64,000 bases of DNA, taken from Halovivax gelatinilyticus (lineage in GTDB: Archaea; Halobacteriota; Halobacteria; Halobacteriales; Natrialbaceae). Below, piece after piece: positions 27,620 through 60,614 of the stretch. The stretch lies in the NCBI RefSeq assembly GCF_024300625.1, contig NZ_CP101322.1, positions 2,741,992-2,805,991 on the forward strand, in the 5' to 3' direction. Under the pieces are notes generated by a model. It was not told the origin of the DNA and made no database searches. It saw nothing but the letters and a program-made list of their open reading frames with translations. Position 1 is the stretch's first letter; each line of letters opens with the position of its first letter. The position numbers and the translations under genes were made by a program.

Positions 27620-27718
27620 TTTATTTTGGGGCCAATTTCTCTGCTGTGGGAATCGCTCATTTGGCAACCGAACGTACGCTACGGCGCGTAGAACGACTCT
27701 GTTATAAGCGATTTGCTA

Positions 27719-27765
27719 CCGTCCCTTGGATCCGAATCAACCGGAAAACGAGTGGGCGCTGCAGG
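27719..27765. repeat. attL: copy of the tRNA-Arg 3' end and flank
   Basis: These 47 bp match 60506-60552 at about 41 positions, including an identical 15-bp block (CCGTCCCTTGGATCC) and an identical 13-bp block TGGGCGCTGCAGG. The last 12 bases are the 3' end of tRNA-Arg(UCG), read on the minus strand. The integrase start is 167 bp to the right. This is the left boundary of the island. Confidence 0.8.
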
Positions 27766-27931
27766 GAGAATGCGCTGCGCTGGAAGAATTGGTAATTCAC
27801 CGAATCGGGAGACGGCGACGGGTTTGGCCGCAAACCGGCTGTTGGCCGCCTGGCGCTGTGTATCCAGTTCGTTAGAATTACGAGTGAGCGCATTCTTCTG
27901 TGGCGATCGTGCGGTTCGCAGATTCCAACCC

Positions 27932-32200: not shown

Positions 32201-32312
32201 ACCAATCGCCGAAGTAATCTCCGAGAAAATTAATAACGGGGATGTCGAACCGGATGATTTGGATTTCTTCAATGAACTTCTAGGAAACATTAATTCTAGA
32301 CTATCTCCGTGA
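29289..32312 (+). CDS. OLD-family ATPase-TOPRIM protein with duplicated winged-helix N-terminus
   Basis: The 1007-residue protein has three parts. Residues about 1-165 and 205-380 are two related modules, each a winged helix (YKKAATEVSETTCSSCLKYF; AEEISEETEFAKRKVQGQVR) followed by a helical domain. A charged linker follows. From about 438 there is an ABC/OLD-type ATPase: Walker A FIGKNESGKTST near 466, signature-like LTHPSQRSEGFQW, and Walker B KILLLDDPAVHLHP near 697. The C-terminus is a TOPRIM nuclease: LLVEGPSEYYIL near 792 and ILLDSDEQG near 853. OLD proteins such as GajA are DNA nucleases in phage defence. The N-terminal DNA-binding duplication is uncommon. Codon use is A/T-rich, unlike the flanks, suggesting transfer. 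No UvrD-like GajB partner is present. Confidence 0.85.
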   Translation: MTDVSLPLTRFTAETHMQSLKGLVDRYEHEGEPIHYKKAATEVSETTCSSCLKYFSKIGLIEPEKQGVYTPSQPIIDYFTKVRESREKAVQRIISKLREDSVFKEVTFHISEEGVGVKELAEKTAGGIGISKDEIPKIERAIEIFAELEALSIGEDDQVTLRTEGKHEPNSDESEAGGAKDGSQQEIRLEKPRDPSELDPEELDLPPTKGDPESLHQVCTQLKAGGKWSAEEISEETEFAKRKVQGQVRYGVELGFIDRSDDGYSPTQRGYDLGFETGLNKTTEELFLEGVLESDIYISLLSRCLDHADEEEGSRAIKSSHCERELRTYFGFTEESEDTLKDAINTFLQTIEAAGHGNYIIGRRGLETRIEFSQNELDGLRRIIRVEVIEQPADKPETENGVNEVDREEKSKSDEKPDQRKGLLKQHLSNGKPEGGPPLRISSLRIQNYRNIQDSEEIRLKPITTFIGKNESGKTSTLEAINSFSKDGEYSDRDICNDIDYESKENLPIISLTFEITEEIAKEYYADDGLNEDFPVKYRVTKYADGHVEDETDLNISPPSPDIVYYNEYDLISDVLYIGEGNDDDNEDSTFWNLLQIGDLTEEKIVGTTGRAHDQAIENAENKIEDRLNDAWSQKDIQVKLSYSDGENCLRLYIQDEIQNEERELTHPSQRSEGFQWFFSFYVNMLAETEGDSEGYKILLLDDPAVHLHPSGKQDWLETLEEIAREEQVLYTSHSPYLIEKQYPARIRTVEDSPNGTQINADIFDADTGTLEPLRNALGIDLSASPFVSEGQLLVEGPSEYYILSAVGTYMDSVLDRGFIDWRKISLMPVRGADDVVGKASWLESENLEYVILLDSDEQGRSVQERIQEHHKHIENDRVQLLSRRPHDEDVVIEDIFDPEFYVAAANEFYTGLMEDFEPISINRVDPNKWEIGREEYEGQRIDKVLVNELRRQDIAEDLENDDGEIELAKRPIAEVISEKINNGDVEPDDLDFFNELLGNINSRLSP

Positions 32313-46000: not shown

Positions 46001-46275
46001 GCTACGAAACGGCATCCCCGTCGGACGCGACCTACGAAGCGACGTTCCAGGGCGGCATCGACGAGTTCTCCCGAGTCACGAATCAGCCGGACCCCTTCGG
46101 TGACACGGTGCGAGTTGACCTGAAGTTCAGAGTCGATATGACCGAACCTGAGCCGATCACGGACGAGGAGGAAGATTTACTCGCGGAACTCGAAGCCGCG
46201 CTTGGACAGACCAACATCGACGTGAAGTTACAGGCTCAAGGGCCGACCGAGATGACCCACGAGGTCGAGCAATGA
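43021..46275 (+). CDS. DUF499 AAA+ ATPase, anti-phage-associated
   Basis: The 1084-residue protein starts MSSKEYPSLFKACTPREDVL, as in DUF499 (COG1483) ATPases. Walker A is RFGGGKTH at about 94-101, the characteristic DUF499 version, and Walker B is ALILIDEIAAYLEAA at about 215-230. Residues 350-600 hold the family's helical region with YPFHPTIIDTLTEKI and RTRGALKLLARSVYYLW. The C-terminal 300 residues are variable and acidic, with a domain ending QAQGPTEMTHEVEQ. DUF499 proteins are the ATPases of BREX-like and DUF1156-linked defence systems. It overlaps the next gene by 4 bp and heads the operon with the DUF1156 methyltransferase. Confidence 0.88.
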   Translation: MSSKEYPSLFKACTPREDVLEGTLQEDQFAASLATVAHSPDDAAPVYRDPGKFFEMTYPTDGLRTLLSNLTGRFLAGEEYGDRYSSSILCLDTRFGGGKTHDLIASYHLATDPTSVENLERHLKDDDEELATTYRDAVEDGLSVDTAVFIGGKVDALNARSGRLDPNAPNTRTMWGEIAYQLYGLNGYEYLKEHDQGRNAPGGNTLRGLFEIGDGPALILIDEIAAYLEAAHAIEVGNTTLASQTLTFMLGLLETASEVDDVTVVYSIADTAFEEEAEEIRSLADDLNQIGRRQHKTVTPTSENEVGKVLQHRLFEDIDREEAGAVTESYFQFYTDSDRQFPQEATDASFVDRLEREYPFHPTIIDTLTEKIDTIPKFQRTRGALKLLARSVYYLWNHQPEHYDRHWIRLYDLTPADNAPDGSIDSTLHETLFEFVDLSAAVSADIYNDEETAHAQLEDRKWTEKGIPRLGSHLTTTVLWHSLAYGEQATGLTRAEMNAALGHPDIRFDNYDSALEALAGGDMTVACYYLYDEERVRFKSDPNLIRIIDQRVDNTPDAHARARFKSRLENEVGSGGFETVEFPEASADLEDKVSMPQLAIMHMDTAPVGDGGSEVPDKIQTLYEKSASKHGGQVQSRVYKNYVLFLAPDEERVRSGIDEARQLEAIEALLDDSQQTADLSTEQIEELRERRDRTHGLLGELVRGVYRHLFYVDRDGLTHITINATEANGGTTLVNAVEETLEDRLIRADASAKGTAFFKQKLWQQTQDNMTTQQLVTQFAKKPGLPYLLNTKPLRKTVERMVDDSGYVYWDGDSGTVYWDGDEDDNPANWNEPGPLSESPDVRTSIQNSDVAIGDEYVVYTDIEAFLDVHGETIERPEVPDSEGEEVSDEDTGSVGTTIGGTSADGDTDQIEIGTSVDTAAPSEWDHATSLMAASRAFKEVRAEALSSEGSDRGPGLSRVTLEVGGEDQLSKGSFIAQQGPFKERAEDVSVRMRYETASPSDATYEATFQGGIDEFSRVTNQPDPFGDTVRVDLKFRVDMTEPEPITDEEEDLLAELEAALGQTNIDVKLQAQGPTEMTHEVEQ

Positions 46276-46904
46276 CGTCACAGTCGTCACTGGAGTCGGC
46301 ACTAACCCCATCAAAGGGCCAGCTCGGAGCTGGAAGACTCGGCAGTAGCGTCTACGGTGGGCGTCCAAATTTCGTACTTGTTCGGCGTGACGATGCTGAG
46401 GGGGCTACGCATACGCTGTATGAGCTATTGCCCGCGGAGCAGGCGACGGCCCGAAGCGATCGACTCGAACGAACGGTTCAGAATCGTCAACTTGTGATCG
46501 AACCCTTCGAGGATGTCCTGGTCGAGTCGGACTCCCCCGAGGTCGATCGCTGGGATTGGGAAGACTGGACGGCGGTGAAGATTAGACGACTATCCGGCAG
46601 TCGATTGCGGTCGATCCTGCCGCTGATTCACGAGACACTGGACGCTGCAGGAGTCAACGACTCGAGTGTGGTGGGCTCCGGACAGGGTGAGGCATTTCTC
46701 CCAGAGTCCGCCGGGATCCGGCTCGCGCTGGGCTTTCTCGGCGTGAAGCCGATCCAGCGAGTCGATCGGATGCGGTCGTTCTGTCGGGGGATCGCACGGA
46801 TGAGCGACGAGGAGTGTTACTACTGGCACGCAAAGTGTCGGTCCCCCTCAAGTCCGAATGGGGAGAAGGCACTTCGAGTTCTGTTAACTGACCATATCAA
46901 TTAA
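46272..46904 (+). CDS. Small subunit between DUF499 ATPase and DUF1156 methyltransferase
   Basis: This 210-residue protein is coupled on both sides: its ATG overlaps the DUF499 stop and the methyltransferase starts 2 bp after it. I see two halves, a beta-rich N-terminus (GRPNFVLVRRDDAEGATHTL) and a helical C-terminus (RLALGFLGVKPIQRVDRMRS, then CYYWHAKCRSPSS), with no catalytic motif. In comparable systems a small protein (for example DUF3780) occupies the same slot. This one may be a haloarchaeal equivalent or belong to DUF7680; I cannot decide. It is probably a structural or adaptor subunit. Confidence 0.7.
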   Translation: MTSQSSLESALTPSKGQLGAGRLGSSVYGGRPNFVLVRRDDAEGATHTLYELLPAEQATARSDRLERTVQNRQLVIEPFEDVLVESDSPEVDRWDWEDWTAVKIRRLSGSRLRSILPLIHETLDAAGVNDSSVVGSGQGEAFLPESAGIRLALGFLGVKPIQRVDRMRSFCRGIARMSDEECYYWHAKCRSPSSPNGEKALRVLLTDHIN

Positions 46905-46906
46905 CC

Positions 46907-49780
46907 ATGACTGAACAACCTTGCTTTTCGAAAGAACTGGAGTCGCTTGCGATCGAGGGGAATATTCCACTAAAAGCAGTTGGTGTTGAGAATCTTAAAG
47001 AAGCAAATCCTAGTTCTATGCCGCCCCATCGTTATCTTCACCCCTGGTTTGCCCGGCGACCTACACCTGCCTCACGGCTTGCGATTCTAACTTCCATATT
47101 ACCTGCCTCCACCACTTCAGATGAACTTCTACAGCTAATGCAAATAGGGCCGAATGAAGATATTGATGGAAGTATTGAAGAATATGTCACAGAGAAGAAG
47201 TTGACTGAAGATGAACGTAGTGGAAATCTCAGAGATCATTATGGATATCCTCGTCTACATGTCCAAACACCGACAGAAAAGGAGATAGAATCATTCCATC
47301 AGATACTTCGAGAGACGTGGGATGGAGAATTGCCGACTGTAATGGATCCGACAGCAGGGGGTGGCGTCATTCCATTCGAATCATTGCGTTACGAGTTGCC
47401 AACTAAAGCAAATGAACTCAATCCTGTCCCAACCGTAATCCTGCGAATAATGTTGGAATATGCGCCTAATGTTGGTTCGTTAGATCAGGAAATTCGAAAA
47501 TGGGCTGAAAGGATCGATGAAAAGGCTCAGGAACAATTATCAGAATATTTCCCCAATAACGACTCTGAGAATAAAATTGACTGTTACGTTTGTACGCATA
47601 CGATAGAATGTCCTACCTGTGGTACTAAGATTCCTCTTGTGTCAAAATGGTCACTCCGCACAAGGTGGGATGCTAATGACGTGTTCATCCGACCTGAAGT
47701 AAATGACGATGGTTCTGTCAGCTATCATCACGTCAAGGAAGATGGTAATGAAGACAGTAGCGACTTTGACCATGGAAACGGTCCCGTTTCACGTGGAGGA
47801 GACGCTGAATGTCTTGACTGTGGTGTCGTAACAGAATCTGAGGAGGTCAGGAATAAGTTCAAAAATGGTGAATTTGAGTTCGAAACGTATGCGGTTAGAT
47901 ACCTAACGAGTTCTGGTGATCATGGTTTCCGTGCGCCACAGAAGGAGGATATCGAGGCTTTAGAAAAAATAAATGGTCGAACGGAATCCGACTACGAGTT
48001 GGCTACCTTCCTTACAACACCTATTCCTGATGGAGCAAAAACGACAGAGCCAAAGAAACATGGACTAACGCATTGGAGAGATGCATTCAGCCCTCGTCAA
48101 TTAGTTTCGTTTTTTGAATATCTGGAATCATATAACCATTTTAAGGGTGATATTCGGGATGAATATGATAACGAAACTGCAGATGCAATATTGGCGATAC
48201 TATCTCTTGTAGCGGGCAAAGTAATCGATCGAAATTCTCGATTTGCTCCTTGGGATACTACAAAAGGTGTCCCATCAAATGCCCTCGGTGGTAAGCATCT
48301 AACTCTCCAGAAGTCTTTCCCAGTCGTGAACATGTCGACCCAGGGTATTGGAAGCTATCTATCCTCAATGAACCGAATTATCGAATCGTATGAGGAACTT
48401 GTGAATTACTTGCCGGCTGGAAGTGACCCCGCTGAAGTCGTTTGTGGAGATGCTGCAGACCTACCGTTTGACGACGACAGTATACAGGCCGCAATTATGG
48501 ATCCGCCGTACTATAGCAGTGTAATGTATGCCGAACTTTCAGATATATTTTATGTTCTATTAAAAGAACACCTTGAAGATGTTTTTCCGTTGAATTTTGA
48601 TACTGACTTGACTAATAAGGATGAAGAAGCTGTGGCGAATCCTAGTCGCTTTGAAGCCATAGCTAGTGCCAACTCATCAAATAGAGAACTCGCAAGCGAG
48701 CATTACGAAAAGAAAATGAGCGACATCTTTTCTGAAGTCTACCGTGTGCTTGAACCCGGTGGTGTGATGACTGTCATGTTCACTCATAAAGAGACTGATG
48801 CGTGGGATACTTTAACTATGTCGCTGATAAATTCAGGCTTTACAATCACTTCCACACATCCAATTACGAGTGAAATGCCAGCTCGGATCGACACACAGGG
48901 AAGCGGGTCTGCTGATAGTACATTGTTCTTAGTCGGGAGAAAACCGGTTTCAGAGTTGACTACCGATAATACTCCATCACTATGGACCGACGTGAAATCA
49001 GATACACGTAACGTCGCTAAGAGAGCAGCTCGAGACCTCATCGACTCCACTCTGAATCTCACAAAAACGGATGTTATAATTAGTGCGTTTGGACCCACGT
49101 TACGGACATTTGCTGAGTCATATCCCGTCGTCGACGACGAAGACAACGAAGTGCAACCGCGACGTGCTCTCGAGGAAGCCCGCGAGGCCGTCACGCAAGT
49201 CCTTGTCGACGAATACCTTGCGGCAGAGGGAATCAACGAACTCGACGACGTGACCGAGTGGTACATCCTCTGCTGGCTCGTTCACGAGGCCGAGACGTTC
49301 TCCTACGATGAGGGCCACCAACTTGGGCTCGGGATCGGCGTCGACATCGACGAGATCAAGCGCTCCACGAAGACCTGGCGTAAGAGCCGTGGGGACATCT
49401 CCCTTCGCGGCCACGACGATCGCGTTCAGAACATAAACGAGAAGCCAGAGAACCGCTCGAGTCGTATCCCTGTGAACCCTGACGATCTCTCCTTCAGCCT
49501 CGCGCTGGACAAAGTCCACGCCGCGATGCACGTCTACGATGTCCAGGGCGAGAGCGCCTGCTGTGACTGGCTCCGAGAACGGAATTTCGACACCGACTCA
49601 ACGTTCAAAGCGACACTCAAAGCACTCCTCCAGGTGCTCCCCCACGATCACGATGACTGGGAGTTGGCGCGTGATCTTGCTGTCGGACGAACGCGGGACA
49701 TGCTCAATCTCCAGTTCAGTCCGAATGTCTTCGCTGACGAGAACAACGAGACGAAGCAGTCGAAGTTGGGTGACCACTGA
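46907..49780 (+). CDS. DUF1156 adenine-specific DNA methyltransferase
   Basis: The 957-residue protein has the DUF1156 (COG1743) N-terminus: IPLKAVGVENLKEANPSSMP, then PPHRYLHPWFARRPTPASRL. SAM motif I is VMDPTAGGGVIPFESL near 145. A zinc-ribbon region, CYVCTHTIECPTC, lies near 225-240. The catalytic motif IV, MDPPYYSSVMYAE, starts near residue 531. The family methylates adenine and works with DUF499 in defence, presumably marking host DNA. Composition is mosaic: about the first 738 codons are A/T-rich with frequent TAT/AAT/GAA use, and the rest (from DDEDNEVQPRRALEEAREAV) has the GC-rich haloarchaeal bias. This suggests exchange of the recognition part. Confidence 0.88.
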   Translation: MTEQPCFSKELESLAIEGNIPLKAVGVENLKEANPSSMPPHRYLHPWFARRPTPASRLAILTSILPASTTSDELLQLMQIGPNEDIDGSIEEYVTEKKLTEDERSGNLRDHYGYPRLHVQTPTEKEIESFHQILRETWDGELPTVMDPTAGGGVIPFESLRYELPTKANELNPVPTVILRIMLEYAPNVGSLDQEIRKWAERIDEKAQEQLSEYFPNNDSENKIDCYVCTHTIECPTCGTKIPLVSKWSLRTRWDANDVFIRPEVNDDGSVSYHHVKEDGNEDSSDFDHGNGPVSRGGDAECLDCGVVTESEEVRNKFKNGEFEFETYAVRYLTSSGDHGFRAPQKEDIEALEKINGRTESDYELATFLTTPIPDGAKTTEPKKHGLTHWRDAFSPRQLVSFFEYLESYNHFKGDIRDEYDNETADAILAILSLVAGKVIDRNSRFAPWDTTKGVPSNALGGKHLTLQKSFPVVNMSTQGIGSYLSSMNRIIESYEELVNYLPAGSDPAEVVCGDAADLPFDDDSIQAAIMDPPYYSSVMYAELSDIFYVLLKEHLEDVFPLNFDTDLTNKDEEAVANPSRFEAIASANSSNRELASEHYEKKMSDIFSEVYRVLEPGGVMTVMFTHKETDAWDTLTMSLINSGFTITSTHPITSEMPARIDTQGSGSADSTLFLVGRKPVSELTTDNTPSLWTDVKSDTRNVAKRAARDLIDSTLNLTKTDVIISAFGPTLRTFAESYPVVDDEDNEVQPRRALEEAREAVTQVLVDEYLAAEGINELDDVTEWYILCWLVHEAETFSYDEGHQLGLGIGVDIDEIKRSTKTWRKSRGDISLRGHDDRVQNINEKPENRSSRIPVNPDDLSFSLALDKVHAAMHVYDVQGESACCDWLRERNFDTDSTFKATLKALLQVLPHDHDDWELARDLAVGRTRDMLNLQFSPNVFADENNETKQSKLGDH

Positions 49781-49793
49781 GCGCTGCGATCGT

Positions 49794-52361
49794 TTACACT
49801 GTTCGCCGATACTTCTCGTTTCGACGTTTGAACGCTTGTTCACCGCCTTCGAGGATATTCTGGGCCAGTTGTTTTACTTTCTCGTCATCGATAGATCCGC
49901 ATCTCCGATAGAAACCAGCTGTGGCGTTCGATTTCATGACGATGATCTGCTCTGCATCACCGAGTACTGGAATGTTTGCGTTGTGAGTGGCAGAAATGAT
50001 CTGTCGATCGTGCTTTATCGATCGAATAAGTTTAACGACTTCTGTGAAGATGAACTTGTTATCTAGCATGTCCTCCGGCTGGTCGATTATCAATGGCACG
50101 TCTCGCTCAACCATTATGATTGAGAGTAGCGCCGTACACTGCTGGCCATCTGACATTTCTGAGAGTTCTTTCCATCCTCCGTCGTTGAGCTCGATGACGG
50201 GCAGATCTCGTATTTCTAGCAGCTCTAATTTGACGAGCTGCTCGTTCAGGTCGTCGTGAGTAACAAAGTTTTTCGCACCAGTAGGGCTGATATCGGTCTT
50301 CTTGAGCAACAGCTCTGCATCATCATTCCGAACGATCTCTGCGAGCTCCGGTGGATCGAAGGTTGCCGTGATTTGTTCTTTGTCGCTCGTGTAGACTCTG
50401 GAGCCTTCGAGAACGTGGTTCACCCAACCGGTGTACTCTGCTCGATTTGCGCGAGGCTGGAGCGAAACACGGACATCGTTCAGTTCCCCGTTGAGTGATG
50501 TAACGCCCCTCTGTCTCGCCTCAGTCAGTTTCTGGCGTGCTTCTTCAAGTTGTTCGAACAGCTCTGCCTTTTTTGCTTTTGCATCCTCAAGATTCGACTG
50601 TTCTTCCTCCAACTCGTCTCCAATCCCGCGAAGCTTCTCCATCTCTGTCTGTTTGGAGAAAAATTCCTCGATGTCGACTCCTATTTCATCCTCGATCTCG
50701 TCAGCGAGCTCTTCGTGCTTGGCTTCCCGCTCCTCATTTGCCTCGTTCCATTCTCTCCGTATTCGATCAATTTCCTCTCGGGCCTCTTCGACCGTATTCA
50801 GCAGCTTCGATTGCTGGTCGTTCAGTTCCTCATTCAACGATTGGATCGTTTTCTGAGCAGAAGTGAGCAGGCCATCATTCGGTCCCTCTTCAACCTCGAT
50901 TACGTCCACAATTCCCGCCAGATCCAATGTGTCGACGATCTCTTCTAATTCATCGAATTCGCTTACCGTATTAGCGAGACTAGCGCGCTCTCGTTCCCAC
51001 TCCTCTTGTCCTTCGACGAACCTCACAACACCCTTCTCTTTCATCACCTCGACTTGCTGCTCGAGCGTATCGAACCGGTGTTTTTTCTCCTCGAGATCCG
51101 CTACCCTCTCCTCTAGGCTAGCGATCTCTCTCGATTTTTCCTTGATCAGTTGCTTCACAGATTCTCGCTGGTTCTGCGGCTCACCGATGTCGAAATACGA
51201 ATCTAATAGGTCTAGCTGGTCTGTCTGATTCCGAGCTATTTCGAGGAGCTCGCGTTGGCTATGGATTTCAACGTCGAAGAATTCACTTCGAAATTGCTCG
51301 ATTGGTATCTCTATCTTCTGGGGCTCACTCGAGTCACCGCCCGGAACTCGCTTGATTTCAGGTTCTTCGCCGTACTCTCGACTGATCATGTACTGATCAC
51401 CGTTGTTACCCGTGAGCAAGACCTGAACCTCGCCACTGTCTCCCAATGTGGAGCGAATTAACCCTCGGAACTCCTTCTCGATCGTCTCTGATCGGGGCTC
51501 GATATCTAGTGCGTATCTGATATGCTCTATCACCGATGACTTCCCCGTCCCTTTCCCACCTATCAAACAATTCAGATTTTTGTTGAATTGAAGGTGACGA
51601 TTCTGTAGGAACCCGTCTTCGACCAGCAGACCATCAACACTCGGGTGAGTTGTGTGCTTGCCTTCGAGAGAAACCCTTGATTCCGGATCGGAGAGTGCAG
51701 TCCGCAACCCCTCAAACGATGGTGTACTCATTTTGAGGTAGGTGTAACCCCGTCCCAACTGGGAGAGTGAATGTGCATCAGAGGAGCGAATGTGGGTAAA
51801 CTCTGGGAATTCGGATTCCGTCTCGAGAGAGATGATTTCCAGCGCTGTAACCTTCTCATTATCAAAAACGTTCTGACGAGTTGGATTCTTCCGCTTCGAA
51901 AGTTCGTGGTGCGCCCCAGCGTTAGCATCAATATGGGCGAGTATCGGAAGTCCATCAAACTCGCGAACTGCGTCACAAATTCCTGGTATCGTTTTATCAG
52001 CAATCGCCTCCTCTGGCTCACCCTCCACTCCAATTTCATACAGAAGGTTGTCGATAGCATCAGCTTGTTCCGGAGGGAAAATCGCAGTCATGTGAATTTG
52101 GTGCTCACCGCTCTGTCCGGTCGTTATTTCGACACCTGGAAGCACCGTAACTGAGGACCCTTCGGCTGCCGCTGCCAGTTTATCGTAATACTCGGCAGTG
52201 TTGTGGTCCGTCACTGCGACCAGTTCAAGCCCCTTCTCTTCAAATGCATCTACCAATTCCTCAGCACTGACATTGTCCTCGTAGTCGTACGAGCCTGGAC
52301 TGTGTACGTGAAGGTCTGCTTTGATGAATCGTGCTCCCCCCGAAGTATCGAACGTAACCAT
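49794..52361 (-). CDS. PHP-domain SMC-like ATPase (TrlF-type)
   Basis: The 855-residue protein starts with a PHP phosphoesterase domain (1-230): DLHVHSPGSYDYED, VTDHNTAEY, PGVEITTGQ, AHIDANAG and RSSDAHSL supply the metal ligands. A split ATPase follows: Walker A GGKGTGKSS near 265-275, a coiled coil from about 385 to 640, signature EMSDGQQCTALLS and Walker B VPLIIDQPEDMLDN near 758. A HDRQIISATHNANI motif follows. This arrangement defines TrlF-type proteins, which occur in defence clusters. It is encoded on the opposite strand inside the DUF499/DUF1156/helicase locus, convergent with the methyltransferase (13 bp apart) and divergent from the helicase. Confidence 0.85.
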   Translation of the reverse strand: MVTFDTSGGARFIKADLHVHSPGSYDYEDNVSAEELVDAFEEKGLELVAVTDHNTAEYYDKLAAAAEGSSVTVLPGVEITTGQSGEHQIHMTAIFPPEQADAIDNLLYEIGVEGEPEEAIADKTIPGICDAVREFDGLPILAHIDANAGAHHELSKRKNPTRQNVFDNEKVTALEIISLETESEFPEFTHIRSSDAHSLSQLGRGYTYLKMSTPSFEGLRTALSDPESRVSLEGKHTTHPSVDGLLVEDGFLQNRHLQFNKNLNCLIGGKGTGKSSVIEHIRYALDIEPRSETIEKEFRGLIRSTLGDSGEVQVLLTGNNGDQYMISREYGEEPEIKRVPGGDSSEPQKIEIPIEQFRSEFFDVEIHSQRELLEIARNQTDQLDLLDSYFDIGEPQNQRESVKQLIKEKSREIASLEERVADLEEKKHRFDTLEQQVEVMKEKGVVRFVEGQEEWERERASLANTVSEFDELEEIVDTLDLAGIVDVIEVEEGPNDGLLTSAQKTIQSLNEELNDQQSKLLNTVEEAREEIDRIRREWNEANEEREAKHEELADEIEDEIGVDIEEFFSKQTEMEKLRGIGDELEEEQSNLEDAKAKKAELFEQLEEARQKLTEARQRGVTSLNGELNDVRVSLQPRANRAEYTGWVNHVLEGSRVYTSDKEQITATFDPPELAEIVRNDDAELLLKKTDISPTGAKNFVTHDDLNEQLVKLELLEIRDLPVIELNDGGWKELSEMSDGQQCTALLSIIMVERDVPLIIDQPEDMLDNKFIFTEVVKLIRSIKHDRQIISATHNANIPVLGDAEQIIVMKSNATAGFYRRCGSIDDEKVKQLAQNILEGGEQAFKRRNEKYRRTV

Positions 52362-52467
52362 TGGTACCTGATTATAACCCGAACATATAATTATGCCGGC
52401 CTATTTGGCGATTGGATCTATCTATGGTTATAAGTGAACCGGGAAAACAAGACTACAACCACGATAA
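52362..52467. promoter_or_regulatory. Divergent promoter region between TrlF-like and helicase genes
   Basis: For the plus strand, GGTTATAAG at 52426-52434 lies 34-42 bp before ATG 52468. For the minus strand, an ATAATTATATG-like box (52385-52394) lies about 24-33 bp before the TrlF ATG. Both fit archaeal TATA placement. Confidence 0.5.
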
Positions 52468-55400
52468 ATGTCCTCGCTTCTGTCCTACACCTGGGATTCA
52501 ATCTACGAGAGCCGACACGACGGGGCCGGTTCCCACCTCGTCGAGGACTTCTACGTCCCCGCGCTGGAACGCAGCGTACGTTACGATCGAATCGCTGGCT
52601 ACTTCTCGAGCAGTGCTCTCGCAGTCGCTTCGCGAGGAATCGAATCTCTTCTTCAGAACGATGGTGAGATGCGTCTTGTCGTTGGTGCAGAGTTGTACGA
52701 AACGGACCGCCCGGTCCTTGAGGCGCTCACTGACGAACTAGAGGACTCGCTGGAGGAACTCGACGACGAAAGGTTGAACGCTCAACTGGTGCTCCTCGCT
52801 CGACTCCTCCGCGAAGAACGGCTCCACATCAAAGTCGCGATCCCCAGAGAGGGGAATTGGCGTATCTTCCATCCGAAGGTTGGGATTTTCCACGACGATG
52901 ACGAGAACGCGCTCTCCTTCGAGGGAAGCATCAACGAGACGATCGGCGGCTGGCAGGAGAATTACGAGCGCTTCAAGGTTCACTGCTCGTGGATCGACGA
53001 ACAACAATCGTACGTCGAGGCCGATATCGAGACGTTTGATCAACTCTGGTCCGACGAGCATCCGTACGTCGAAGTACACGACCTCCCCGAGGCGATCGAA
53101 CGGGAACTTATCGACTGGAAGGATCCCGAATCAGACGCGCAACTCGAGAAGGCGATCCAGATCGCTCGCGGAGAGGCCCCGCTGACCGAGCGGGACAAAG
53201 CGAATATCATCGCAGACGGCAACCTTTCTCCAGGTGGTCTCGCACTCGCCGAAGAAGCCAGCACGATCACGCCGTGGCCACACCAGCGCGTCGTCTCCGA
53301 TACCCTCGTCAACACCTACCCGAATAGCTTTTTGCTGTGTGACGAAGTCGGGCTCGGGAAGACGATCGAAGCTGGTCTCACGCTCTCCAGGCTCGGTCTC
53401 ACTGAGGAACTCGACACCGGACTACTGCTCGTTCCGGCGAGCCTGCCCGTCCAGTGGCAGGAGGAGCTCTGGGAGAAGTTCAACCTGAACGCGTATCGGT
53501 ACGACCGAGGGAGCGACTACGAGTACGCGTTCATCGACGCGTTTGATCGAGAGCATTCGCCGCCGGATCCAGCCGATCTCGATCTCGACGAAAATAGATG
53601 CGAGGAGGCGTGGGTCGAGAGTCCGATCTGGCGGTTCCTCCACGATCACCAGACCGACCAGGATAGGGACGGCCCCGCGGTCGTCATCATGTCCTGGCAC
53701 ACCGCTCGCTTGAAAGGCCGGTGGGACCAGGTTGCGCCACGAGATAACGGACGAGTTCGGACACGAGCTGACGTCCCAGCGAGTTGTCGCGGACGACCGA
53801 GAACGAACAGGGAAGGGGTCTGGGACGCCGTCGTCGTGGACGAGGCACACAACGGCCGCAAGGGTAGCAACTTCTACTCGATGCTCGAACGGCTCCGGGA
53901 TCACACCCAGACCTACTATCTGTTGACCGCGACGCCGATGCAGCTGCATACGGGTGAGCTGTACGACCTGATGGCCTTGCTGGACCTTCCCGGTGCGTGG
54001 GACGATCAGGACGCGTTCGTCGAGTTCTTCGAGACCAGACGCGCCCTGTCGGCAGCGATCGATGCCGTACACGGAGACGCCGGTGGATCTACTGCCGACG
54101 ATTCGTGGTCTGCCCAAGCTACGCTCACGGAAGGCCACTACCAGGACCGACTTGCGGGAGATCGAAGCCTCTCGGATCGCATCCTCGACGCTGTCGCTAC
54201 CGAACTCGAAATCAGTGACGATCAACAAGGTCGGTCGATTGCGAAACAATGCCTCCTGCGGGCCTGTGATCTCGCCAGTGAGTACGGCGAGCACTACGAC
54301 GGCTATATCGACACGTTCGAAGCAGCACTGGCGGACCACGACGTCGATCCGTACAACGCGAGGGAAGACGAGAAGCTCAAGTTCCTCCTCTATCCCGACT
54401 GGAAGGCCGAAGAGGAGTGGCTCACGCCGTCCCGGAACGATCGGCTCAACGCGCTGGACGAACTCACCGAGGCGGGCTGGCAGGTCGTCCAGGACGTTTT
54501 CGCCTCGTCGACGCCGGTCGATGCGCTCATCCATCGCAACACCCGGGATACGCTGCGAAAGTACGAACGCGTGGGCCTTCTCGACACGACGGTTCCGGAT
54601 CGCGATCCGGACCAGCGCAAGATCGAACTCACGGATGAGACTCGGGAGGTGTACGACCGTATCGACGAGTACACTCGGAAGTTCTACAAGCTCGCCCAGC
54701 AGTCCGACGAGGCCGAGTCCCGCGCAATCGGCTTCGTGATGACCACGTATCGTCAGCGACTGACTAGTAGCGTCTACGCTATCTCACAGAGCCTCCAGAC
54801 CCGCCTGGAGAAGCTCCGCAGTCAGAAAGCAGTCCTGGAGGGGCGGAAACGAGCCGAAGACCGATCGTATGGGGACTCCCAACAGGTAATACTCGAGACG
54901 CTTACCGAGTACGATCTCGACGACATAGATGCCCTCGACGAGCTCGATGGCGACCTCGAGGATGCAGACCTCTCGGAGATCATCCCGAACGTGACGGACG
55001 AGGGGTTGCATCTTCTGGAACAGGAGATCGAGGAACTGGAGTCGTTCGTCGACGTGCTAGCCGAGATCAATCAGGATCCAAAAATCGGCCAGCTCAAAGC
55101 TGATCTCGACGAACTGACTCGCCAAGGTCACAATCGGGCGATCGTCTTCACACAGTACACCGATACGATGGACTTCATCCGAGAGGGTCTTCTGTCTGTT
55201 CACGGTGAGACGGTTGCGACCTACTCCGGCCGTGGTGGCGAAATCTACGATAGCGATACGGAGAGCTGGGTGCAAGTCGGCAAGGAACGTGTCAAGCGGG
55301 AGTTCGCAGCTGAAGGCGGTCAGGTCGAGATCCTCGTCTGTACCGATTCCGCCAGCGAGGGACTGAACCTCCAGGAGTGTGGTGCGCTGATAAATTACGA

Positions 55401-56424
55401 TCTGCCCTGGAACCCGATGCGTGTCGAACAACGTATCGGGCGTATCGATCGTATTGGCCAGGAGTTCCCCGAAGTGACGATACTCAACTACAGTTACGAG
55501 GACACGGTTGAGACGGATATCTACGAACGTCTAGACGCCAGGATTGGCCTCTTCGAAAACGTCGTTGGTGATATGCAGCCGATTCTATCCGGTGTTAGTA
55601 GTCAGATCCGCTCTGCAACCCTGGAAACTGATCGAGACGAAAGTGGTACGGCGGTCGAAGAAGCTGATCAGGAACTCTCTACCAAGATCGACCAGCAGGA
55701 ACAGAGTGATCGTGTCGAAGTCAGAGAGTCACTGGAAACCGTCGATGAACTCGTCGAACAGGACGTCATCGACGAGGCGAAGCTGGACGCCTGGCAGTCG
55801 TACGCACACCCAGACATCGAAGACGTTGGGGACGAAGATTACACCTATCCCATCCCATACACGGCAGACGCACTTGAGGCGGTCCTCGTCGGGAACAAGT
55901 GGCTCGAAGAGATCGGGATCTCGTTGACGCCAGTTGAGGAGCTGAATCTCACTGCAACTGACGGAGAGTCGATGGATGGGTTCGATTTCGAACGTTCGAC
56001 CTATCGACTTCAACTTGGCGAGCTCGAAGTGCCGGAGTCAGACGGAGAGCAAACAATTGCGCGAGTTATCGCTCCGGAATCGAATGCGATTGCTGTTACG
56101 TTCTCAGCCGAGTGCGCCGACGCCTTCCCTTCGATTCACTATCTCGCTCCAGGGAATCCCTTGCTCGACCAACTCATCACTTCGATCGAAGAAACGTGCG
56201 AGGAACCAAATCGGTTATCGAAGCAGATCGTACCACGCCAAGAGCACGACGGTCTCCCAGTTGTCTGTGGCTGGGCTCGTAACGGTGCAATTGCGATGCT
56301 CGACGATGACGGGATAACCAAAGAAGCGTTAGAAGCCGACATTCTCTTTGCCTGGAATGAAACGTACCTAAGCACTCGAGAGCAGCGGGAGGTTCTACCC
56401 GTTAGTGGCTCTCTAAGCAACTGA
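52468..56424 (+). CDS. PLD-nuclease / SNF2-type helicase fusion
   Basis: The 1318-residue protein has an N-terminal PLD-like domain (RIAGYFSSSALAVASRGIES, then FHPKVGIFHDDDENALSFEG at about 133-153, an HxK motif). The SNF2-type DEAD-like motor follows: Walker A CDEVGLGKTIEAGL near 291, DEAH box VVVDEAHNGRKGS near 455, motif III LLTATPMQLHTGELYDL and helicase C motif VI RIGRIDRIGQ near 990-1000. A C-terminal acidic region of about 280 residues completes it. Such PLD-SNF2 proteins are the helicase component of DISARM-like and DUF1156-linked defence. It probably works with the DUF499 ATPase and methyltransferase upstream. It is GC-rich, unlike the adjacent TrlF-like gene. Confidence 0.88.
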   Translation: MSSLLSYTWDSIYESRHDGAGSHLVEDFYVPALERSVRYDRIAGYFSSSALAVASRGIESLLQNDGEMRLVVGAELYETDRPVLEALTDELEDSLEELDDERLNAQLVLLARLLREERLHIKVAIPREGNWRIFHPKVGIFHDDDENALSFEGSINETIGGWQENYERFKVHCSWIDEQQSYVEADIETFDQLWSDEHPYVEVHDLPEAIERELIDWKDPESDAQLEKAIQIARGEAPLTERDKANIIADGNLSPGGLALAEEASTITPWPHQRVVSDTLVNTYPNSFLLCDEVGLGKTIEAGLTLSRLGLTEELDTGLLLVPASLPVQWQEELWEKFNLNAYRYDRGSDYEYAFIDAFDREHSPPDPADLDLDENRCEEAWVESPIWRFLHDHQTDQDRDGPAVVIMSWHTARLKGRWDQVAPRDNGRVRTRADVPASCRGRPRTNREGVWDAVVVDEAHNGRKGSNFYSMLERLRDHTQTYYLLTATPMQLHTGELYDLMALLDLPGAWDDQDAFVEFFETRRALSAAIDAVHGDAGGSTADDSWSAQATLTEGHYQDRLAGDRSLSDRILDAVATELEISDDQQGRSIAKQCLLRACDLASEYGEHYDGYIDTFEAALADHDVDPYNAREDEKLKFLLYPDWKAEEEWLTPSRNDRLNALDELTEAGWQVVQDVFASSTPVDALIHRNTRDTLRKYERVGLLDTTVPDRDPDQRKIELTDETREVYDRIDEYTRKFYKLAQQSDEAESRAIGFVMTTYRQRLTSSVYAISQSLQTRLEKLRSQKAVLEGRKRAEDRSYGDSQQVILETLTEYDLDDIDALDELDGDLEDADLSEIIPNVTDEGLHLLEQEIEELESFVDVLAEINQDPKIGQLKADLDELTRQGHNRAIVFTQYTDTMDFIREGLLSVHGETVATYSGRGGEIYDSDTESWVQVGKERVKREFAAEGGQVEILVCTDSASEGLNLQECGALINYDLPWNPMRVEQRIGRIDRIGQEFPEVTILNYSYEDTVETDIYERLDARIGLFENVVGDMQPILSGVSSQIRSATLETDRDESGTAVEEADQELSTKIDQQEQSDRVEVRESLETVDELVEQDVIDEAKLDAWQSYAHPDIEDVGDEDYTYPIPYTADALEAVLVGNKWLEEIGISLTPVEELNLTATDGESMDGFDFERSTYRLQLGELEVPESDGEQTIARVIAPESNAIAVTFSAECADAFPSIHYLAPGNPLLDQLITSIEETCEEPNRLSKQIVPRQEHDGLPVVCGWARNGAIAMLDDDGITKEALEADILFAWNETYLSTREQREVLPVSGSLSN

Positions 56425-56608: not shown

Positions 56609-56991
56609 GGTAGTGTAGCTGTAGATAGCAGATCAGACTAAATTAAACACCATAGGATGGTGAGCGCGTAGGATCAATTGAGGGGCTTCCGGGATGTCTA
56701 GAACATGTTAAATTGGAAATGCATTGGGGGAAAAGGCGTTGCAAGGGCTGCACTAAACGAATTCATCACTCTGAGTCGAGAGCATAGTGTTACTAAGGTC
56801 ACGACAAATAACGCAACCCGTCCGCAATGGAACACATCCTCGAAACGGAGGGATTTGAGGAGAGTTTCGATGGCATCGGTTGAGAAAAGGAGGTTTGACC
56901 ACATATTGGCTGGGCCAATGCCGAAGATGGCTAACTACTCTGCGATCCCCCCGATACACTTAATTGCTATTAATACAAATAGACCGACACT
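56609..56991. other. A/T-rich region before the HIRAN/PfkB/QueC operon
   Basis: No supported gene. The short frames on both strands lack folded motifs. An ATTAATAC box near 56971-56978 lies about 14-21 bp before ATG 56992, and earlier A/T-rich sequence (ACTTAATTGC) near 56957; either could be the TATA element of the operon. Confidence 0.4.
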
Positions 56992-57954
56992 ATGGGTGGA
57001 GGAGGAGGCGGATATGACCGTCCGTCTAGTAACGGTGGATCGAGAGAAGGTTCTGGGGATTCTGATGAAGACGGATCTAGTAGCGTTCCTCCTCCCGAAC
57101 CAGATCCTGAAGAGGAGACCACCGGAGATCAGTCTGATGAGTCAAATGGAACAGACGACGAAGCGACTCCAGAGGGCTCACCAGCAACTGGTGGTGGTAT
57201 CGGTGCATCAGTAGTGGACCCTGGAGAAGGGCCTAACGGCACGCCTGAAGAGGATGATTCAGAGGCTGAGGAGGAAGATACCGACTCTAAAACAGATGAG
57301 CATGAGAGCGGTCAAGAAGATTGTGAAGTGGAGCATGAAGAAGAGAGAGACGATGAGGACACTGAAAATGATGACAATGATCAGGAAGAAGATGAAGAGG
57401 ATGACAAGGACGATGATGAAGAAGACGAATGCCTGATTGCAGAATTAACACTTCTCCACTCGCCTAACCCGGAACCGTTAGGAGATGCAACTGAGGGGGA
57501 TATCTGTTCAGTACGTTTTCAAGAGAAGGCGGTTTGTGTTGTAGATTCACAAGGAAGGACTATCGGTGCCATCGCTGAACCGTGGGTTAGTACATTGAAG
57601 GAGTGTATCGAACAAGGGCGACAATATCGTGCTCGGATTCTTGATATCGATGGTGGGAAATGCGAAGTTCGAGTGACCAATAAGTGCCTGGTCCACCAGG
57701 CCATCAATCTGACCTCTGTGAATACTGCAGTACGGGACCAGCTGCATCCGGAGCTATTCCTGTCAGTTGAAACAACGAGCGAAGAGGTGTTTGTTGTCAC
57801 AGCTGACGAATCCAGAGTCGGCGACGTTCCTGAGCCGTGGGCTCAACTTCTCAAAGAGTGTATTGAGCAAGGACGATCATACCAGGCAGAGGTTCGTGAC
57901 GTTACACCGGAGTATTGCAAAATCAACATCCGGAACGGAACAGGGGACGAATGA
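56992..57954 (+). CDS. Acidic protein with two HIRAN-like repeats
   Basis: The 320-residue protein begins MGGGGGGYDRPSSNGGSREG, then has about 130 residues rich in Asp/Glu and Ser (a disordered, possibly DNA-mimicking or interaction segment). Two repeats of about 75 residues follow. Repeat one contains VCVVDSQGRTIGAIAEPWVS, then LKECIEQGRQYRARILDIDG. Repeat two contains VTADESRVGDVPEPWAQLLK, then CIEQGRSYQAEVRDVTPEYC. The V.(D/E)..G..(I/V)G.(I/V)...W...LKECIEQGR.Y.A.(I/V) pattern resembles the C-terminal half of HIRAN domains, which bind DNA ends or damaged DNA. The stop overlaps the next start (ATGA). It is the first gene of a coupled three-gene unit. Confidence 0.6.
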   Translation: MGGGGGGYDRPSSNGGSREGSGDSDEDGSSSVPPPEPDPEEETTGDQSDESNGTDDEATPEGSPATGGGIGASVVDPGEGPNGTPEEDDSEAEEEDTDSKTDEHESGQEDCEVEHEEERDDEDTENDDNDQEEDEEDDKDDDEEDECLIAELTLLHSPNPEPLGDATEGDICSVRFQEKAVCVVDSQGRTIGAIAEPWVSTLKECIEQGRQYRARILDIDGGKCEVRVTNKCLVHQAINLTSVNTAVRDQLHPELFLSVETTSEEVFVVTADESRVGDVPEPWAQLLKECIEQGRSYQAEVRDVTPEYCKINIRNGTGDE

Positions 57955-59171
57955 TTATTGCAGGTGGCGCGTATCACGAAACGTGCCAGTTCCCTCCTGA
58001 CACAGCATTCTTCGGATCAGGTGTACGAGCAGCCGCGGCTACCGAGACTATCGTTTCCTCTCGTAACCAACTCCACACATGCATCGGCTCTGCCGACAAT
58101 GAGACACTCGAAACTTACGCGGCCACGTTTGACTTCGGGGTCCACATAACCGAAGTTCCGGAGACAGTTAGCTTCGATTATCTGCATAACCATTCAAATC
58201 CTGTGTTCTCTCCACCAGAGGCATCCAACTATAATTATGAACTCTCAGGAATAAGTGGAGACGCAATCCTTCGATTTGGGCTCCTTGAAGGGTCTGCAAT
58301 TGTGTCCGGTGAGCGCGTAGTCTATGATCCTCAATCAGCAGATCCTGTTCCGTTTTCTGAGAACGGCTCGACTGCCGAGGAACTCGCCCTCGTTCTGAAC
58401 TATGACGAAGCTGTGAAACTAGCTAGTGAAGACGATGTAGAGGCCATTTTTACAGAACTCATGGCAGGTACTACTGCAGCAGACGTGGTCGTCCTCAAGC
58501 GGGGAGCGGAAGGGGCAATCGTCAGGACACCAAGAACAACGACCCGAATCCCGGTTTTTCAGACGGAGTCCGTTTGGGGAATTGGAAGTGGGGATGTGTT
58601 CAGCGCTATCTTTGCTGGCGAGTGGGCAGAAAACGGTGAATCTGCAGCAGAAGCTGCATTGACCGCTTCGAAGGCGACAGCATACTACTGTAAGCACCGC
58701 CATCTACCCATTTCCCGAGAACTCATCGAATCGGTACCCAACACTAGTTCATCGACATTCATCCCACCAGACGCTACTCCTCCGACGGTATATCTGGCAG
58801 GGCCGTTCTTCGACATTGGCGAACGGTTCGTTGTTGAGGAAGTCAAACATCTCTTGGAGAGCGAGGGAGTTGAAGTGATTTCCCCCGCTCACGATATTGG
58901 TCGAGCTGCTGAATACGATAGTCCAGAGGAGGTGGCGCAGCAGGATCTCGACGCCATTGAGAAAGCAGATTTAGTATTTGCGTTATTGGACCATTTGGAT
59001 TCCGGAACGCACTTTGAGTTAGGATATGCTCGGAAAGATGGAACACCGGTTATCGGGTACACGAATGATTTCGAGACAAGCAGTGAAACTATGCTATTAG
59101 GATCTGGGTGTGAGGTGTACGAGGATCTATCCTCGGCGGTCTATCATGCAATCTGGAGGGCATATGCCTGA
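57951..59171 (+). CDS. PfkB-family kinase fused to nucleoside 2-deoxyribosyltransferase
   Basis: From ATG 57951 (MIIAGGAYHETCQFPPDTAF) the protein has 406 residues. Residues about 1-265 resemble PfkB/ribokinase-family sugar or nucleoside kinases: VVLKRGAEGAIVRTP, and VWGIGSGDVFSAIFAGEWAE with the catalytic Asp (Ser replaces the second residue of the usual GAGD). Residues 279-406 are a nucleoside 2-deoxyribosyltransferase: TVYLAGPFFDIGERFVVEEV, DLDAIEKADLVFALLD and the SGTHFELGYA nucleophile Glu near 356. Such enzymes cleave or exchange the base of (deoxy)nucleosides. The fusion suggests one pathway that acts on nucleosides or nucleotides. It is coupled to both neighbours by overlaps of 4 and 8 bp. 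Confidence 0.8.
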   Translation: MIIAGGAYHETCQFPPDTAFFGSGVRAAAATETIVSSRNQLHTCIGSADNETLETYAATFDFGVHITEVPETVSFDYLHNHSNPVFSPPEASNYNYELSGISGDAILRFGLLEGSAIVSGERVVYDPQSADPVPFSENGSTAEELALVLNYDEAVKLASEDDVEAIFTELMAGTTAADVVVLKRGAEGAIVRTPRTTTRIPVFQTESVWGIGSGDVFSAIFAGEWAENGESAAEAALTASKATAYYCKHRHLPISRELIESVPNTSSSTFIPPDATPPTVYLAGPFFDIGERFVVEEVKHLLESEGVEVISPAHDIGRAAEYDSPEEVAQQDLDAIEKADLVFALLDHLDSGTHFELGYARKDGTPVIGYTNDFETSSETMLLGSGCEVYEDLSSAVYHAIWRAYA

Positions 59172-59751
59172 GTCCGTTCTATTACTATCGGGTGGTCTCG
59201 ATTCTGCGACACTCGCATATACTCATAATCCGGACCTCACGGTGACTGTTGATTACGGACAGTGCTGCGCGGACGCAGAGATTCAAGCCTCAGAACAGAT
59301 TGCCGATCAACTGAATCTTGAGCACGAAGTCATCGAGGTGGATTGTAGAAGTTTAGGTGCTGGTACAATGGCAGGAAAGCGGGAGACCAAGCTCAATAGT
59401 GCTCCGGAATGGTGGCCATACCGGAATCAACTCGTGATCACGCTAGTCGCAATGGATGTCGTTCGTCGAGGAGCAGATCGGCTATTGATCGGCGCAGTTG
59501 CCGATGATCAAGATCACGCTGATGGGAAGGAGGAGTTCTTCGAGCTGATAGATTCTCTCCTATCATTTCAAGAAGGAAACCTTCGGGTTAAGGCTCCAGC
59601 AATAGATAGCACAACGGAAGAGTTTGTACGCGAAGCGAACCCCCCTGAATCACTCCTCGGATGGACTCACTCTTGTACAGCATCGAACGCCGCATGCGGC
59701 GAATGCGGCAGTTGTAAGAAACGACAACGGGTCCTCAGCCGCGTTTTCTAG
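59164..59751 (+). CDS. QueC-like PP-loop enzyme
   Basis: The 195-residue protein starts MPESVLLLSGGLDSATLAYT with the SGGxDS PP-loop. It has VTVDYGQCCADAEIQASEQI and the WWPYRNQLVITLVAMD helix corresponding to the QueC (Y)VPxRN region. The C-terminal zinc-type cysteines are in CTASNAACGECGSCKKR. QueC makes 7-cyano-7-deazaguanine from CDG using ATP and ammonia. Here the DxSGYPDCRxxF segment is replaced by DDQDHADGKEEFF, so the substrate may differ. QueC-like proteins also occur in Qat and type IV CBASS defence. No other queuosine genes are in the window. Confidence 0.75.
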   Translation: MPESVLLLSGGLDSATLAYTHNPDLTVTVDYGQCCADAEIQASEQIADQLNLEHEVIEVDCRSLGAGTMAGKRETKLNSAPEWWPYRNQLVITLVAMDVVRRGADRLLIGAVADDQDHADGKEEFFELIDSLLSFQEGNLRVKAPAIDSTTEEFVREANPPESLLGWTHSCTASNAACGECGSCKKRQRVLSRVF

Positions 59752-59831: not shown

Positions 59832-60239
59832 CTACTCCTCTGTTTCTTCTTTTAGGATTTCTCGAGCGCGCTCTTCCCCCACTTTACCGATTAGATTTGA
59901 TAGTGACTCGCGAGAGACGGTGTCAAGATACTCCTGAGAATGAACGTACATCTCTACACGCGTTCCGGTCTCCTCGGCGACGGCCCGTGCTGCTTCAAAT
60001 GCAGCTTGGTTATCCCGATCCGCGTCCTTGTCGTCAAACGAACTCCCCCATCGTCCCGGTATGTAGATAGGGCCGACCCCGTCTTCACCTCGATTGTACT
60101 GGAATCGAAACTGACCGACACGGTTGTAGTGCTCGTACAGACCAAGATAGACCTCTATTGAGACGTCAATGTCGTCTCCACGTACAATCTCCTCGATTTT
60201 CCACTGCTTAAATTCCGGGTTGGATGTTTCTGAACCCAT
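59832..60239 (-). CDS. Conserved hypothetical protein at the island's right end
   Basis: The 135-residue protein begins MGSETSNPEFKQWKIEEIVR and is a mostly alpha/beta acidic protein with a YIPGRWGSSFDDKDADRDNQ segment and a C-terminal helix ending REILKEETEE. I do not recognise a family. It is convergent with the QueC-like gene, 80 bp apart. The next 270 bp before attR hold no gene. Confidence 0.6.
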   Translation of the reverse strand: MGSETSNPEFKQWKIEEIVRGDDIDVSIEVYLGLYEHYNRVGQFRFQYNRGEDGVGPIYIPGRWGSSFDDKDADRDNQAAFEAARAVAEETGTRVEMYVHSQEYLDTVSRESLSNLIGKVGEERAREILKEETEE

Positions 60240-60505
60240 AGACCCTACTTTCAGAACGGCTCTATTAGTGTTCCGATGGGCACACTGTGGCTCTAATGAA
60301 GGAATTGCTGTGCTATGAAGGTCGCCAAACTTTCAACCCGGATGCTGCAAATGTGGGATAGTTCCTCGACCGACATCCACCCGCACCATTATGTGATTCC
60401 GACTCAATCTTGTATCCAGCGAACCGCACGATGGCGACGAACCCCATTCGGCAAACGAACGAACTCAACGGCGCACAGAGTGACTCCTTTATAAACAAGT
60501 CACCG

Positions 60506-60552
60506 CCGTCCCTTGGATCCCAACCATCCAGAAAACAAATGGGCGCTGCAGG
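60506..60552. repeat. attR: tRNA-Arg 3' end and flank
   Basis: This is the right-hand copy of the 47-bp repeat at 27719-27765. It overlaps the last 12 bases of the intact tRNA-Arg(UCG) and continues 35 bp beyond the gene's 3' end. Mismatches with attL are spread over the flank, so either the element is old or it brought a slightly different sequence. Confidence 0.8.
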
Positions 60553-60614
60553 ATTTGAACCCGCGACAACTTGGTCCGAAGCCAAGCACTCTGTCCAGAC
60601 TGAGCTAAGCGCCC
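60541..60614 (-). tRNA. tRNA-Arg (anticodon UCG)
   Basis: The 74-nt cloverleaf on the minus strand reads: acceptor GGGCGCT pairing with AGCGCCC, D arm GCTC...GAGT, anticodon stem CTTGG/CCAAG with loop CTTCGGA (anticodon TCG), and T arm GCGGG TTCAAAT CCTGC. TTCAAAT is the standard T loop. It carries no encoded CCA. It is the integration target of the island at 27719-60552. Confidence 0.92.

Follow-up and report, generated by a model that had tools for sequence, protein, structure and literature searches.

Protein–nucleobase conjugation has been shown only in the type IV cyclic oligonucleotide-based antiphage signalling system (CBASS), in which Cap9 joins 7-amido-7-deazaguanine to the N-terminal glycine of a CD-NTase with the motif MGGS (PMC11996544). 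The same kind of modification has been proposed for the Qat system, in which the MGTS tail of QatB is essential (PMC13279940). The pairing of a QueC-like protein with a fusion of a PfkB kinase and a nucleoside 2-deoxyribosyltransferase (NDT; PF00294-PF05014) has been described by Libby et al. in 2026 as 'Cluster 4' of the family PF06508. It was found mainly in Proteobacteria, with the fusion as a neighbour in 89% of the Cluster 4 neighbourhoods, and a role in purine salvage was suggested (PMC13329287). Here, these systems are compared with a trio of overlapping genes from the haloarchaeon Halovivax gelatinilyticus, located in a stretch of 64,000 nucleotides (the window) that covers positions 2741992–2805991 of the 3.70-Mb one-contig genome. 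The trio encodes a HIRAN-fold protein with a glycine-rich N-terminal tail (gene 1), a PfkB-NDT fusion (gene 2), and a putative QueC-like ATP-dependent ligase (gene 3). By analogy with type IV CBASS, the trio probably forms the minimal core of a mobile antiviral module in which a nucleobase is conjugated to a protein.

The three open reading frames (ORFs) lie on the plus strand (Table 1). Gene 2 begins within an ATGA at the end of gene 1, which gives a 4-bp overlap, and the ATG of gene 3 precedes the end of gene 2 by an 8-bp overlap, as the preliminary description of the locus had reported. Both overlaps recur in close haloarchaeal relatives. A full-length PfkB-NDT is encoded in 6 of 391 Halobacteria genomes and a remnant in one, and the four congeners have neither; genes 1 and 3 are adjacent in all six genomes with the full-length fusion. 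Wider sampling combined a plasmid search, IMG/VR, and the best 80 loci among 84,980 species genomes scanned, and it extended the trio to Pseudomonadota, Cyanobacteria, Spirochaetota, Verrucomicrobiota, Myxococcota, and Desulfobacterota. Among 94 loci selected by PfkB-NDT alone, the QueC-like gene is present in every one, directly downstream of the fusion in nearly all, and at least 92 loci have gene 1 immediately upstream of the fusion. Gene 1 was not called in the remaining two: in L063, just a shortened HIRAN-like part can be read in frame, and in L066, the PfkB match is partial. Conversely, all 24 plasmid records with a QueC-like match of at least 40% identity also carry PfkB-NDT. The three genes therefore make up a genuine unit co-conserved across archaea and bacteria and not a chance arrangement; a lack of co-occurrence in other genomes, which had been named beforehand as grounds for refuting the module, is clearly contradicted. 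The phage collection searched yielded no full-length PfkB-NDT, and IMG/VR contains only three, the remaining matches being plain NDTs. Matches are present in 22 of 5426 genomes of Escherichia coli.

The fusion of a ribokinase-type kinase to an NDT, noted earlier from the translation, was borne out by matches above the family cut-offs for both PF00294 (32.7 bits, cut-off 25.8) and PF05014 (69.2 bits, cut-off 28.8). The kinase motif G212-S213-G214-D215 and the NDT catalytic residue Glu356 are invariant among homologues. The kinase part has the full ribokinase fold and matches pseudouridine kinase, the closest relative, and ribokinase. This conservation of active-site residues and the similarity to pseudouridine kinase, together with the frequent pairing with QueC in Cluster 4 neighbourhoods, speak for the published suggestion of purine or nucleoside salvage, according to which a purine is recovered by PfkB-NDT together with the QueC-like enzyme, with gene 1 in an accessory role. 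However, the patchy spread among Halobacteria and E. coli and the location in defence islands and prophages speak against a salvage pathway, and the near-universal HIRAN-like partner with its conserved tail has no evident salvage role. A salvage function is, therefore, rather improbable.

The long acidic stretch of gene 1 was confirmed, and the two HIRAN-like repeats recognized in the preliminary description agree with predicted structure, although the sequence match is weak. Gene 1 scores below the cut-off of the Pfam HIRAN family PF08797 (E = 0.05, 13.8 bits versus 24.7 bits) and matches the PADLOC model PDC-M03B with E = 1e-6. The AlphaFold2 model of residues 137–320 (predicted local distance difference test score, pLDDT, of 88) contains two similar domains, and both are predicted to have the HIRAN fold. 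The second resembles Lactobacillus lp_0118 and, with Z scores of 9.0–9.4, the HIRAN domains found in HLTF and Rad5 (9.4 for Rad5); the comparison with HLTF has a root-mean-square deviation of 2.1–2.2 over 84 aligned residues. The first repeat resembles the C-terminal part of Hachiman HamB (Table 1). A profile of gene 1 has no credible match among sequences from the PDB; however, the fold comparison did find these relatives. The HIRAN domain of HLTF is a binder of DNA 3' ends, and gene 1 may likewise bind DNA. HLTF, Rad5, and HamB share the fold of gene 1 with Z scores of 7.7–9.4; however, gene 1 is a stand-alone protein with a conserved tail and not a part of a helicase. Bacterial gene 1 proteins are 100–130 residues long and have one HIRAN-like domain. 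By contrast, the domain is duplicated in haloarchaea, and the long acidic linker is found in the close relatives of the window protein.

The N-terminus of gene 1, which the preliminary description had not noticed, follows the pattern M-[S/G/T/C]-G-[S/G]-G, with MGGGGGGY in the window and MSGSG in most bacteria. Gly3 is present in 90 of 92 homologues, and the strict motif occurs in 81 of the 92 as opposed to 6 of 1247 other ORFs of the same loci. The linker that follows is highly variable. The start sites are backed by Shine–Dalgarno-like sequences in 82 of 85 bacterial or viral cases and, in haloarchaea, by a CTTAA box that is conserved at about the same distance upstream of gene 1 in six loci (L031–L035 and L039). 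In the type IV CBASS reference locus (L238), the CD-NTase starts with MGGSGGGFF and adjoins genes for Cap9 and a Cap10-type protein. The tails MGGGGGGY of the window, MGGSGGDP of L127, and MSGSGGGF of L061 are very near to this sequence. The tail of gene 1 resembles N-termini that serve in type IV CBASS, and are proposed to serve in Qat, as targets of QueC-family enzymes, which is a similarity and not proof of modification. Whereas a modified base or nucleoside had previously been proposed as the product of the module, the tail points to the HIRAN-fold protein as the putative substrate of the QueC-like ligase.

Gene 3 matches PF06508 with 91 bits (E = 1e-25) and reaches 76.3 bits against TIGR00364, the model of true QueC, which has a cut-off of 150.3 bits; a separate canonical QueC is encoded in the same genome (L221). 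The ATP loop, Tyr-Gly-Gln, RN, and four cysteines are invariant in the QueC-like proteins of the trio. Compared with the published Cluster 4 motifs CH(x)5CxxCxGCxK and YGQ(x)6E, the window protein shows CT(x)5CxxCxSCxK and YGQ(x)5E, and the haloarchaeal L035 protein matches CH(x)5CxxCxGC.

The trio shares with type IV CBASS a QueC-family ligase, a nucleobase- or sugar-exchange enzyme, and a protein with a glycine-rich unstructured N-terminus; in both, QueC is minimal, at about 190–200 residues with the spacing [YF]GQ(x)5E. However, the trio has neither a CD-NTase nor a tRNA-guanine transglycosylase (TGT), its candidate tagged protein has a HIRAN fold, and the NDT-PfkB protein stands in place of Cap10. 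No CD-NTase was found within the trio operons, which comprise gene 1, PfkB-NDT, and the QueC-like gene with or without SagB-like, HhH-GPD, and Dam genes. The trio has in common with Qat a QueC-family protein and a partner with an N-terminal glycine motif on a flexible tail. By contrast, QatC has about 400 residues and a remodelled active site, and QatB is unrelated to gene 1; neither the KAP ATPase QatA nor the TatD nuclease QatD was among the trio neighbours examined. The operon of a QueC-like gene with PF00294-PF05014 is that of Cluster 4; however, no mention of a HIRAN gene, the tail, a SagB-like gene, or a glycosylase was found in the Cluster 4 publication (PMC13329287). In searches of the open-access literature, neither the HIRAN partner nor its tail came up, nor did the SagB-like gene or the rhizobial bridge described below, and nothing relevant was returned on HIRAN with QueC or on QueC with glycosylase and nitroreductase. 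The earlier statement that no system with this gene set is known is correct only in part: the QueC-like/PfkB-NDT pair has been described, whereas the HIRAN gene, like the tail, seems to be unreported. The preliminary reading is supported in that the trio is a co-conserved module with a HIRAN-fold protein, is associated with defence, and is akin to Qat and type IV CBASS.

In the proposed mechanism, gene 3 would use ATP to adenylate a carboxylated purine-like base and would then couple this base to the amine exposed at the N-terminus of gene 1, in the way that Cap9 modifies the CD-NTase. The tagged gene 1 protein would bind DNA ends during infection through its HIRAN domains. The NDT half of gene 2, by exchange of base and deoxyribose, and the kinase half would act on the tagged base; alternatively, gene 2 might be switched by the tagged base to attack the nucleotide pool. 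In either case, virus replication would be stopped. No other effector is obvious in the three-gene forms of prophages and haloarchaea, and PfkB-NDT therefore appears to be the best effector candidate. It is conceivable, although doubtful, that the enzymes work one after another, with the QueC-like enzyme joining the base to the N-terminus of the HIRAN-fold protein, NDT adding the deoxyribose, and PfkB phosphorylating it; a sensor of DNA ends would then carry a protein-linked deoxynucleotide. If the conjugation reading is correct, the trio would represent a third and wider conjugation family, spanning archaea and bacteria, in which a DNA-end-binding partner is tagged and an NDT-kinase replaces the TGT. 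It would also indicate a general immune chemistry with exchangeable parts, namely CD-NTase, QatB, TIR, and HIRAN proteins. A group lately labelled purine salvage would become a testable defence hypothesis, with natural copies in E. coli.

Several observations weigh against the conjugation reading. The step itself is drawn by analogy, and the defence role from genomic context. An invariant HxDG stands in the trio proteins where QueC and Cap9 have the substrate-binding YPDC, in agreement with the replacement of the binding segment for 7-carboxy-7-deazaguanine noticed in the preliminary description, and the trio proteins form a clade apart from canonical QueC and Cap9 with a Shimodaira–Hasegawa-like approximate likelihood-ratio (SH-aLRT) value of 99 in a tree in which Cap9 is represented by only two sequences, both on long branches. 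Therefore, the substrate specificity of the enzyme has probably changed. Five of 20 trio genomes, three of them metagenome-assembled genomes of unstated completeness, lack canonical QueC, QueD, and QueE, and QueD is absent from 10 of 51. Because those five genomes seem unable to make the deazaguanine precursor, 7-carboxy-7-deazaguanine is not asserted as the obligatory base, and the base may be a different one. Furthermore, the residue exposed in most bacterial homologues of gene 1 is Ser2 and not Gly2.

Bacterial operons usually contain, in addition to the trio, a gene for a nitroreductase-fold protein (81 of 94 loci) and one for an HhH-GPD glycosylase of the 8-oxoguanine type (83 of 94), and 38 of the 94 loci include a Dam methylase. 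These additions favour a DNA modification or restriction system, in which the enzymes would make a 7-deazapurine nucleotide for DNA that is read by the HIRAN and glycosylase proteins, and 7-deazaguanine DNA islands (Dpd) do exist. However, the trio core has no DNA-inserting transglycosylase (DpdA/TGT), the glycosylase and methylase are missing from the haloarchaeal and prophage versions, and the tail of gene 1 is left unexplained, which makes such a system very unlikely. The best curated match of the nitroreductase-fold protein is the SagB peptide dehydrogenase family, with E = 1e-11 to 1e-14, below the cut-off. The SagB-like gene accompanies only gene 1 proteins with Ser or Thr as residue 2 (77 of 83) and none of the eight with Gly or Cys, a correlation confounded by clade and counted with one gene 1 called with Ala2, probably from a wrong start. 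Under the serial reading given above, the bacterial SagB-like dehydrogenase may oxidize an oxazoline formed from Ser or Thr at residue 2. The SagB-like gene lies about 1.8–2.5 kb past the PfkB start in the bacterial loci L045–L124.

A divergent version of the trio is present in Neotabrizicola (L256, 4281–7297), with a QueC-like protein about 27% identical and an unannotated gene 1 whose ORF starts with MGSTGSGSF, ends in a HIRAN-like C-terminus, and overlaps PfkB-NDT by ATGA. This locus also has a possible HhH-GPD gene. Plasmids of Rhizobium and Agrobacterium (Table 1) encode a homologue (39%) of the PfkB protein in which the NDT half has neither the catalytic motif nor a Pfam match. Their operons also carry an HhH-GPD glycosylase, a QueC, a ThsB-like TIR protein that starts with MGGGSSGSW or MGGGGGGDG, and a TIR-TGT protein. 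The TIR-TGT protein matches both the TGT model for type IV CBASS (E = 1.8e-22) and the Cap10-type protein of L238. The rhizobial system looks like a hybrid of Thoeris and type IV CBASS with a glycine-tagged TIR protein. A TGT is present where the NDT is ruined, and the glycine tail sits on a different partner, which is the main reason to propose that the NDT and TGT act on the tag.

PADLOC, NCBIfam, and Pfam by themselves do not identify the trio as a system. The defence context of the trio is strong. At a threshold of 1e-15, PADLOC found 173 families in 125 neighbour ORFs of 32 bacterial loci, compared with 10 in 118 control ORFs taken at arbitrary places, mostly in those same genomes; families and not proteins were counted, and redundancy inflates both numbers. 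Of the three E. coli loci examined, one is in a prophage, one at tRNA-Sec, and one, truncated, at tRNA-Thr, and anti-phage dGTPase, NACHT, and HEPN genes are nearby. In L103 and L125, genes for a P2-like repressor and Cox adjoin the three-gene form, as read by eye, and such sites are a known spot for defence cargo. The window trio lies in an island of about 27.7–60.5 kb between an integrase-side repeat and a tRNA-Arg gene. The island has Hma-like genes (for HmaC, E = 2e-88, HmaB, E = 5e-54, and a PLD-SNF2 helicase), along with PDC-S11 and genes for two ATPases, one TrlF/Ppl-like and the other OLD/Gabija-like. Among the defence neighbours, dGTPase genes occur most often (6 of 125 ORFs), and the NDT-fold relatives of gene 2 include nucleotide hydrolases such as the CMP N-glycosidase 4jen. 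Both observations are consistent with a nucleotide-depletion abortive system, in which HIRAN would sense DNA ends, PfkB-NDT would destroy (deoxy)nucleosides, and the QueC-like enzyme would only license the complex. This explanation overlaps with the conjugation reading on the output side; however, depletion by itself needs neither a QueC ligase nor a glycine tail, and it is unlikely as an account of the whole trio.

Table 1 Coordinates of the trio, its flanking features, and the related rhizobial system (positions in the window unless a locus is named).
Feature	Position	Strand	Remark
Gene 1: N-terminal Gly-rich tail, long acidic linker, two HIRAN-fold repeats (predicted)	56992–57954	+
Tail codons MGGGGGGY, proposed conjugation site (Gly2 once Met is removed)	56992–57015	+
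HIRAN-fold repeat 1 (predicted), aligns with the single domain of bacterial homologues	57427–57684	+	HamB Z 7.7
HIRAN-fold repeat 2 (predicted)	57688–57942	+	lp_0118 Z 11.9, HLTF Z 9.3
Gene 2: PfkB (ribokinase-fold) kinase and nucleoside 2-deoxyribosyltransferase (NDT part ~58779–59168)	57951–59171	+
Gene 3: predicted QueC-like ATP-dependent ligase (SGGLDS loop, WWPxRN, HxDG, four Cys)	59164–59751	+
CACTTAA promoter-like box, ~30 nt 5' of gene 1	56957–56963	+	putative function
Rhizobial/agrobacterial plasmid system	L044 7001–11363; L257 6001–10401; L258 5953–10364
tRNA-Arg(TCG), island integration site	60540–60614	-
attR-like copy of 108-nt direct repeat, into tRNA 3' end	60445–60552	+	78% to 27658–27765
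attL-like copy of 108-nt direct repeat	27658–27765	+
Tyrosine integrase beside left repeat	27713–28942	+	residues read by eye; homologue in another trio locus

The Hma-like cluster of the window island extends over 43021–56424 and consists of HmaC, a small unassigned gene, HmaB, and the PLD-SNF2 helicase. The TrlF/Ppl-like PHP-ATPase is encoded on the opposite strand between the methylase and the helicase. The OLD/Gabija-like ATPase (29289–32312) has 1007 residues with a long extra N-terminal part and adjoins the left integrase. A CD-NTase-like gene followed by a second gene, a CBASS-like pair as read by eye, is located directly downstream of the haloarchaeal trio of L034, 2.0–5.5 kb past the PfkB start. 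Directly after the window trio, a 135-residue protein of unknown family is encoded on the minus strand (59832–60239), and it is 83% conserved in the same place in L031.

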